In this document: positions 5,150 through 30,884 of the stretch, in pieces
Position numbering within the stretch: position 1 is the stretch's first letter
Layout: each line of letters begins with the position of its first letter
Origin: Leptotrichia shahii
GTDB lineage: Bacteria; Fusobacteriota; Fusobacteriia; Fusobacteriales; Leptotrichiaceae
Reading direction: 5' to 3'
DNA: 64,000 nucleotides
Assembly (NCBI RefSeq): GCF_008327825.1
Contig: NZ_AP019827.1
Location: forward strand, 1,984,001 to 2,048,000
Made by a program: the position numbers and the translations under genes
The notes under the pieces: generated by a model
The model's database searches: none
The model's input: only the letters and a program-made list of their open reading frames with translations
Told to the model about the DNA's origin: nothing

Positions 5150-5323
5150 ATGAAAAAGTTATTTTTGATTGTAATTCTTGCTCTGACTACAGTAAGTTGT
5201 GAACTTTTTAGTCCAAGTTATTGGAACAGAGTAACTGAAAGCAGAAGAGAAAATGGAGAAAGATGTTATATAAAAAATGGAAATGCTTATTGTGTAGATA
5301 GAGATGGTAATAGGCTTTATTAA
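5150..5323 (+). CDS. Micro-lipoprotein A (57 aa), unknown function
   Basis: Encodes 57 residues: a short signal peptide ending in the lipobox TVSC (Cys17), leaving a mature lipoprotein of about 41 residues. The start chosen is the ATG at 5150, eight bases after GGAG; a longer reading from 5111 would start within the -10 element. The C-terminus carries the pattern CYxxxGNxYCxDxDGN, shared residue for residue with the gene directly downstream, so this is one member of a tandem pair. Two cysteines eight residues apart could form a disulfide after export. I do not recognise the family. Confidence 0.75.
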   Translation: MKKLFLIVILALTTVSCELFSPSYWNRVTESRRENGERCYIKNGNAYCVDRDGNRLY

Positions 5324-5352
5324 TAAATTATTTTTGATTGGAGTTGATGGAT

Positions 5353-5523
5353 TTGAAAAAATTGATTTTGATTACTGTTTTGGGAATGGCTGTGGTTAGT
5401 TGCAGTCTACTTGATAATGAAGCATATCAGGAAATGAAAAGGGATAGAGCTGAAAGAGGATACCATTGTTATAAGCAATATGGAAATGTTTATTGTGAAG
5501 ATAAAGACGGAAATAGTTATTAA
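5353..5523 (+). CDS. Micro-lipoprotein B (about 56 aa), paralogue of A
   Basis: A tandem paralogue of the preceding gene with a 29-base gap. I place the start at TTG 5353, nine bases after GGAG. This makes the signal peptide align with the first copy so that the lipobox cysteine (VVSC) is again residue 17; an upstream ATG at 5347 is too close to the ribosome site. The shared C-terminal pattern CYxxxGNxYCxDxDGN is intact, while the middle has diverged. A hairpin terminator follows. Function unknown; acidic and basic residues alternate around the cysteines. Confidence 0.7.
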   Translation: MKKLILITVLGMAVVSCSLLDNEAYQEMKRDRAERGYHCYKQYGNVYCEDKDGNSY

Positions 5524-5536
5524 TAAATCATTATGT

Positions 5537-5598: not shown

Positions 5599-5655
5599 TA
5601 TACTAAATCTCGGTTAAATAAGAAATTTATTATAAATTTTTCTAATAAAGAATAA
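5599..5655 (+). repeat. partial copy of the dispersed intergenic repeat
   Basis: The segment beginning TACTAAATCTCGGTTAAATA resembles the left half of better copies at 14504 and 22331 (TACTAAAC.TC.TTTAAAAA), without the GGGG/CCCC core. A further half-copy lies at about 5030-5065, next to the poly-A run. Decayed; moderate confidence only. Confidence 0.4.
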
Positions 5656-5706
5656 CAACTCAATATTTTTAAATAATTAAAATATAATTTTTACTCTTTA
5701 AAATCC

Positions 5707-5824
5707 GTCGGAGCATTTTTCTGTGCTGACAAAACTGTTTGAGCACAGCGAGTTTTTTGGCAGTGCAGAAAAATGTCATAGACTAGCCATAGGTCGTAGG
5801 ATTTGCGGCAATGAGCAATCCTAC
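5707..5824 (+). ncRNA. candidate structured RNA element, copy A
   Basis: Order of parts: GTCG (5707-5710); arm CATTTTTCTG (5714-5723) pairing perfectly with CAGAAAAATG (5766-5775); inside it CTGTTTGAG (5735-5743) and GCGAGTTT (5748-5755); then TAGACTAGC (5779-5787) and a terminal hairpin (5796-5824) with loop GGCAATGA. The same order, spacing and conserved blocks recur at 30536-30709, where the outer stem has a different sequence but still pairs. The 5' GTCG can pair with CGGC at the terminal loop, giving a possible pseudoknot. No protein is encoded. The family is not identified; Rfam covariance models would decide whether it is known. Confidence 0.6.
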
Positions 5825-5887
5825 AGAAATAAAAAAGAAAAAACATAGTAATATGGAAAAATATTTATTAATTAAAATATACAAAAA

Positions 5888-30305: not shown

Positions 30306-30418
30306 ATTACATTTTTTTATTAAATAAAACCTTAAATATTCATATTTGAGATTTTTTTATAATTTATATTTATAGATTATTTTTATGAGTAATTATTTTT
30401 TCTTAATTAATTTTTTTA

Positions 30419-30490
30419 ACGTAAGGGCGTCAAATGCCACGCCCTTATAACCCAGCTTACGCAAAACTTTCTCAATAAAGAAATTTTGCC
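30419..30490 (-). ncRNA. candidate structured RNA element, partial copy C (inverted)
   Basis: On the minus strand: stem AGAAATTTTGC-type arms (30489-30479 and 30472-30461), then TAAGC (30459-30455), then hairpin AAGGGCGT-GGCATTTG-ACGCCCTT (30446-30423) followed by an A-rich tail. The eight-base loop beginning GGC and the preceding AAGC block match the 3' halves of copies A and B. The 5' GTCG and the CTGYTTGAG block are not clear, so this is a partial or decayed copy, divergent from copy B. Confidence 0.45.
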
Positions 30491-30535
30491 TGATATTTGT
30501 TTTAATTAAATAATCTGTTGTAATTGAATTAGAAT

Positions 30536-30709
30536 GTCGTGATTTTTTTGGAATAAAATTGACTGCTTGAGTTTTTTCAAACTTTTTAAATTGTAATTAG
30601 TTTAAAAAGTTTATAAGAACTTTTATTAAAAAGCGAGTTTCAATTCCATTTCAAAAAAATTCTTAGACAAGCGGGGATTGTAAAGGGGATGGCGACTGAT
30701 CCCCTTTAC
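30536..30709 (+). ncRNA. candidate structured RNA element, copy B
   Basis: Parts in order: GTCG (30536-30539); outer arm ATTTTTTTG (30542-30550) pairing with CAAAAAAAT (30652-30660); CTGCTTGAG (30563-30571); a variable perfect 12-base hairpin (30579-30590 / 30601-30612); GCGAGTTT (30633-30640); TAGACAAGC (30664-30672); terminal hairpin GTAAAGGGGAT/ATCCCCTTTAC (30680-30709) with loop GGCGACTG. The loop CGAC is perfectly complementary to the 5' GTCG. It agrees block by block with copy A at 5707 although the stems differ in sequence. It lies in a 579-base gap with no gene. Confidence 0.6.
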
Positions 30710-30884
30710 GTTTAGAAAAAAGAAAAATATTAAAAAAAAGAAAAATAATATCAATAAAAATAACTTTTGTTAATTTTAAATAAAATTCTTTAAGATGAAT
30801 ACTTTAGGAAATAAGCTTAAAATGGATTTATTAATAAATAAAAAATAATTAGAAAATATTAAAAATTATTTTTAGGAGGAAATA

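Follow-up and report, generated by a model that had tools for sequence, protein, structure and literature searches.

A structured, high-copy unit of Leptotrichia shahii that probably belongs to a mobile repeat family, with an apical core recurring across bacterial phyla

Results

Structured units in the analysed window

The window analysed here comprises 64,000 nucleotides of the Leptotrichia shahii contig NZ_AP019827.1. Near its left end, at the upp locus, a histidine kinase gene is followed by two short lipoprotein-like reading frames (window 5151-5524) and then by the structured unit that we call copy A. The two frames vary among species at this locus (L411-L417) and are missing in G008 and G010. 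The unit itself contains no gene, as an earlier note on this DNA had said, and every part that the note had named for copy A and for a second unit, copy B, was recovered in its place (Table 1). A covariance-model search revealed a third unit in the window, a shortened D-type unit lying head to head with copy B. The possible composite formed by these two matches other composites in size.

Table 1. Coordinates of the structured units and their parts in the window
Feature	Position	Strand	Evidence
Probable left terminal repeat of the element carrying copy A (TATACTAAATCTCGG...)	5599..5622	+	same sequence opens A-type elements elsewhere that close in inverted form
Copy A, whole structured unit (P1, P2 with apical core, P3, A-rich tail)	5705..5849	+	R1 match 133.5 bits, E 4.1e-32
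GTCG tag of copy A	5707-5710	+	
P1 5' side (GUC) of copy A, partner 5781-5783	5707..5709	+	forms in 11/11 distinct combinations; compensated changes GAC:GUC, AUC:GAU
P2 of copy A, long covarying stem enclosing the apical core	5713..5776	+	changes on both sides in 14/20 modelled pairs; 96.3% of cells paired
P2 stem arms of copy A	5713-5733 and 5756-5776	+	
Apical core ACTGTTTGAGC-ACA-GCGAGTTT of copy A, cross-phylum motif	5734..5755	+	pattern match G000:C1:1989734-1989755; cross-phylum matches
ACTGTTTGAGC of copy A	5734-5744	+	
GCGAGTTT of copy A	5748-5755	+	
TAGACTAGC of copy A	5779-5787	+	
P1 3' side of copy A (GAC within TAGAC)	5781..5783	+	
P3 of copy A, terminal hairpin with 8-nt loop GGCAATGA	5796..5824	+	aligned to R1 model
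A-rich tail of copy A, alike in A- and B-type copies	5825..5849	+	alignments of copies
Possible 479-bp composite element (D unit and B unit), imperfect inverted ends	30330..30808	.	suggestive only
D-type unit, shortened, head to head with copy B	30395..30493	-	R1 match 32.5 bits, E 2.3e-6
Copy B, whole structured unit	30534..30734	+	R1 match 120.7 bits, E 7.3e-29
Copy B as first described	30536-30709		

Fold and covariation

A-type and B-type units are all built alike: P1 is a short helix (GUC/GAC), the long stem P2 bears a fixed apical core, and P3 is a terminal hairpin that has a GGC loop. These stems covary. P2 and P3 are joined by a linker containing AGC. Both window copies fold better than their dinucleotide shuffles (z -3.7 for A and -7.4 for B), with none of 200 shuffles as good in either case. 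We built a covariance model, R1, from 19 copies and counted covariation on the same number. Among them, 91.3% of cells were paired (72.0% when shuffled), 23 pairs carried changes on both sides, and the covariation score was 0.574 against 0.219 for shuffles, none of which reached it; controls with slid partners gave 0.06-0.17. R1 also retrieved 39 matches from this genome at E up to 0.1. Taken with the score, these matches bear out two earlier proposals, namely that the outer stems covary between copies and that A and B form one structured family.

The pseudoknot proposed between the 5' GTCG and the terminal loop fared less well. All four of its pairs can form in only 6 of the 11 distinct combinations of 5' tag, 3' partner and loop, whereas the GUC/GAC helix forms in all 11, and in copy A the pseudoknot would use a C that already closes the terminal stem. 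Furthermore, the two sides of P1 change in step, to GAC:GUC in C-type copies (L048, L072, and L081), to GGC:GUC in L041, and to AUC:GAU in L067. We prefer a pairing of the 5' GUC with the GAC of UAGAC to one mainly with the terminal loop; a pseudoknot may form in part of the B copies. In D-type units the GTCG tag is missing and P1 is longer.

Several A-, B-, and C-type copies carry an insert of about 60-90 bp (ATTGCGTAGCAATCTTGCC... or TAGTGCGTAGCACTTTCGCC...) inside the P3 hairpin. Such inserts were seen in L414 and L417 (the upp locus of G007 and G005, respectively), in L072 and L081, and in L052, L060, L073, and L074, and they look as if a second tiny repeat enters there repeatedly. Separately, some A-type units of the sister genome G012 (L121, L124, L127, L133, L136, and L139) have the apical core altered to ACTGCCCCGCCGTAAGCGAG, and the TAGAC segment is altered to GAGCCTTGCC in some of these copies; the variants appear shuffled among copies, as by gene conversion.

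Copy number in the genome and the genus

With copy A as query, BLAST returned 10 matches in this genome and as many as 36 in single genomes of the genus; with copy B, it returned 25 and as many as 74. The earlier note had expected further copies in related genomes and had suggested a covariance-model search over the genus. Run with R1, this search gave many matches, with copies in all 13 genomes of the genus at 1 to over 30 each: about 18 to at least 31 in most genomes, 11 in G004, and 1 in G006. An A-type unit was also present in Leptotrichia sp. oral taxon 879 (L182). Many copies of the units are decayed, and our search for plasmid and phage homologues of A found none.

Units inside MITE-like elements

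The clearest view of the surroundings of the units came from G012. Its elements are 459-481 bp long and non-coding, and each contains one unit of the A type and one of the B type, which lie head to head at a distance of about 30 bp. They have imperfect 22-bp terminal inverted repeats with the ends GACAGAGT..AAACCATC, and near-identical copies share sharp ends, GACAGAGTAAAATA... and ...TTTTTAAACCATC, at unrelated sites. Exact target duplications of 9-11 bp flank 27 of the 32 complete copies, 25 of them being exactly 10 bp long and the other two 9 or 11 bp. No transposase gene lies inside, only the structured units. We covered 2.0 of the 2.19 Mb of G012 and counted 45 full-size elements there, 44 of which contain the core. 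Since head-to-head pairs sit in elements with terminal inverted repeats and target duplications, the A and B units travel inside a MITE-like DNA transposon. According to the near-identical copies and the intact target duplications, these elements have apparently been active recently.

Two statements of the earlier note can be read in this light. Its view that copy A is unlike a transposon end is misleading, as the same pair of units forms the interior of the G012 element with its terminal repeats and 10-bp duplications. Its suggestion of a small mobile RNA element is borne out as regards mobility, while the RNA part stands as conjecture.

Elsewhere the picture is more varied. In other species, A-type units occur in elements with different ends (TATACTAAACCCC...GGGGTTTAGTATA). 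One 348-bp A-type element of G001, with such other ends, is flanked by a perfect 10-bp duplication (L028), and the rest show no clear duplication. The copies in the window display inverted repeats and common ends only in part: a right element end could not be identified for copy A, and no clear target duplication flanks the possible composite around copy B. At the upp locus, seven species, this one among them, have copy A, and G008 and G010 lack it. The locus in these two genomes is nevertheless not a clean empty site, because the flanking gene order differs there too. In G010 (L419), a solo P3 with its tail lies in the opposite orientation where copy A would be expected, so P3 may persist or move alone.

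The apical core across bacterial phyla

In other Fusobacteriales, matches to R1 were weaker and concentrated on the apex. We scanned one genome per species with the pattern ACTGTYTGAGCNNNGCGAGTTT, leaving the flanks out of the scan, and obtained at least 118 stretches. Intergenic hairpins with the apex ACTGTYTGAGC(GNA)GCGAGTTT turned up in many phyla, the matches listed being from Clostridia, Bacteroidetes, Proteobacteria, Nitrospirae, Desulfobacterales-type bacteria, a CPR genome, and others. Complementary flanks (at least 8 of 10 positions) were found in 88 of the 114 listed matches with full flanks, compared with 4.0, and at most 11, when the flanks were re-dealt. This flank test is the unbiased one; 53 sequences hand-picked from the matches, each of them checked against its locus, gave a covariation score of 0.755 against 0.144. 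Among the listed matches, the stem positions adjoining the core show all four Watson-Crick pairs. Thus, many bacterial phyla share the apical core, and its flanks covary.

The first stem is most frequently 9 bp long and is then commonly followed by a recurring internal loop (5' CGTTAA / 3' AGCG). The loop of the core is GNA in 99 of 114 listed matches, and the two apex pairs covary by lineage, appearing as GAAC-GNA-GTGAG in the Fusobacteriales genomes G029 and G037 and as GAGT-GAA-ACGAG in part of the copies of a Lachnospiraceae genome (G099). With one mismatch allowed, copies per genome reached 71 (G099), 50, and 37, while the reversed pattern gave 0-4. Some genomes of Clostridia, Proteobacteria, and Fusobacteria hold dozens of copies, and the sampled Bacteroidetes hold fewer. 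Only three viral contigs carry the core.

Strand preference and gene context

To compare the two strands, we replaced the apex by a neutral loop. Of 92 cases, the given strand then had a better fold than the complementary one in 79. The mean difference was -6.3 kcal/mol, against -3.8 for composition-matched shuffles and +1.8 for flanks, with base composition accounting for about 60% of the effect. The G099 set alone showed no strand effect. Furthermore, G.T pairs exceeded A.C on one strand by 113 to 36 in the genus set and by 61 to 32 across phyla. The strand effect points to selection on one single strand, and would do so for RNA and single-stranded DNA alike.

The DNA reading, which we consider fairly unlikely but serious, holds that the structure acts as single-stranded or cruciform DNA, that a transposase, nuclease, or replication factor recognises the hairpin during mobilisation or repair, and that any transcript is irrelevant. 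GNA triloops are very stable DNA mini-hairpins, and their prevalence in the core, the location of the units in mobile DNA, and the weak promoter evidence all suit this reading. The G.T excess and the strand effect, however, suit RNA at least equally, and the transposon ends of G012 are ordinary terminal repeats outside the units, so that the hairpins are not required as ends.

We think it less probable still, and on balance unlikely, that the units are independent trans-acting small RNA genes carried and spread by the transposon. The structure of the units, their length of 120-200 nt, and their fixed 5' tag would fit such a gene, and the B-type copies share an AT-rich upstream stretch with a TATAAT-like hexamer in some. 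Nevertheless, promoter-like matches occur near A and B at roughly the rate expected by chance, neither copy has a terminator-like site, copy number is high and erratic from genome to genome, and the decay of many copies also speaks against it. We likewise found no evidence for the guide-RNA role that had been raised for copy A; as regards a HEARO or omega-type RNA, A and B gave no Rfam match.

Stable hairpins in intergenic positions might also serve as cis-acting mRNA elements or terminators of adjacent genes, which the gene context makes very improbable. Upstream neighbours are on the same strand in 47 cases and on the opposite strand in 47, and downstream neighbours in 37 and 57, respectively (p 0.05). 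Such nearly random orientation speaks against a role on the neighbouring gene. A consistent orientation upstream of one gene class, as expected of a regulatory leader, was not seen: the relation to the next gene differs between A and B, the G012 elements carry units in both directions within one element, and no terminator-like site is present at either copy.

Search for the mobiliser

Terminal repeats combined with a duplication of fixed length are typical of transposases of the DDE class. Over the same 2.0 of 2.19 Mb of G012, neither a transposase for the elements nor an autonomous copy was found, and longer elements with the same ends and a duplication numbered 33, equal to the background of 33. 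As no autonomous element rises above background, the transposase acts from elsewhere, has diverged ends, has been lost, or sits in the remaining 9% of G012.

Several of the genomes have Y1 transposases. On contig C1 of G012 there are seven matches to Y1 (IS200-like) transposases, equal in score and 158 aa each (e.g., 226569-226925). One Y1 match, at 1282112, adjoins the broken end of a MITE-like element (1281872) and was apparently inserted into it. In G099, which carries 71 cores, many hairpins end in GGCTGTCGCAC...GTGCGACAGCC (L391-L410); these resemble the ends of a common insertion-sequence type, which might lead to the mobiliser in that genome.

A Y1 enzyme of the RAYT kind was rejected as a universal mobiliser, since no Y1 match was found in G007, G029, or G033, all of them rich in units. 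REP/REPIN sequences with RAYT are likewise extragenic palindromes of high copy number with a tetranucleotide tag, often arranged as head-to-head dimers, but they are 20-40 bp long and lack a long covarying stem (PMC3733652), while the elements studied here make 10-bp duplications and Y1 is not constant. That the family consists of REP/RAYT-type elements mobilised by a Y1 tyrosine transposase can scarcely be credited, for all its palindromic, extragenic, tagged, and abundant units and the Y1 genes in several genomes: the units measure 120-200 nt, the tag's GTC takes part in P1 rather than being free, terminal repeats and 10-bp duplications are not REP features, and a Y1 transposase gene flanked by the repeats is lacking in the three unit-rich genomes named above.

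Comparison with known families

Neither A nor B matched any of the 4227 families of Rfam 15, and the cross-phylum units had no Rfam match at gathering level. Sub-threshold matches were weak and to unrelated long hairpins. FuFi-1, Fusobacteriales-1, and HEARO, which the earlier note had named for comparison, resemble the units in being structured, conserved, and intergenic; the absence of any match for A and B covers these motifs insofar as Rfam 15 contains them. A search of open-licence papers found no description of the core, either by sequence or by concept.

Bacterial MITEs include, for example, ERIC, Correia/NEMIS, and RUP. Like these, the elements are short, non-coding, dispersed, and intergenic, with terminal inverted repeats and target duplications of fixed length. 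Unlike them, their interior consists of two covarying structured units, and the unit apex is kept across phyla although the transposon ends differ.

Closest in concept are the mobile or repeat sequence candidates of Narunsky et al. 2024, with MRSC-65-2 as the worked example. That survey included Leptotrichia buccalis among its genomes, and it describes MRSC-65-2 as having a long covarying stem, dozens of copies per genome, and a distribution over many phyla, with RNA or DNA form left undecided (PMC11109978). All four traits are shared by the units. Judged by that worked example, identity was nevertheless rejected, as the UYCCGG repeats of MRSC-65-2 are absent in the A and B elements and lie near only 13 of 129 core matches. 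Our comparison covers this one example, and the survey holds 249 other candidates (PMC11109978).

Discussion

The family is a high-copy mobile repeat, and is probably a widespread, unnamed jumping structured nucleic acid and not an ordinary small-RNA gene. For copy A, we consider it likely that it is one structured unit of a non-autonomous, non-coding, MITE-like transposable element whose fold matters as a single strand, with an apex bound by protein. Under this preferred reading, a DDE-type transposase would move the elements in trans, as the terminal repeats and the duplications of fixed length suggest. The fold that matters would be that of a single strand, most probably of a transcript, and the apex would be bound by a protein supplied by the host or its transposons. 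The fold may then serve the persistence of the element itself, through RNA stability, copy control, or help in mobilisation, and not the regulation of neighbours. The occurrence of the same units within different transposon ends needs further explanation and may reflect module exchange.

A broader proposal is possible, although we incline somewhat against it. The apical core ACUGUYUGAGC(GNA)GCGAGUUU might define a single superfamily, ancient and unrecognised, whose mobile structured elements occur in many phyla. The conserved apex would be recognised by a widely conserved protein that acts on folded RNA or single-stranded DNA, and the stems and transposon ends would be freely exchanged between lineages.

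Given its apparently recent activity, G012 is a place to look for the transposase. The recurrence of the core also raises a testable question, namely which protein binds the same 22-nt apex in many phyla, and whether it acts on RNA or on single-stranded DNA. If the apex is indeed a recognition site held in common, there would be a mechanism and a name for a large hidden class of bacterial repeats that is absent from Rfam.
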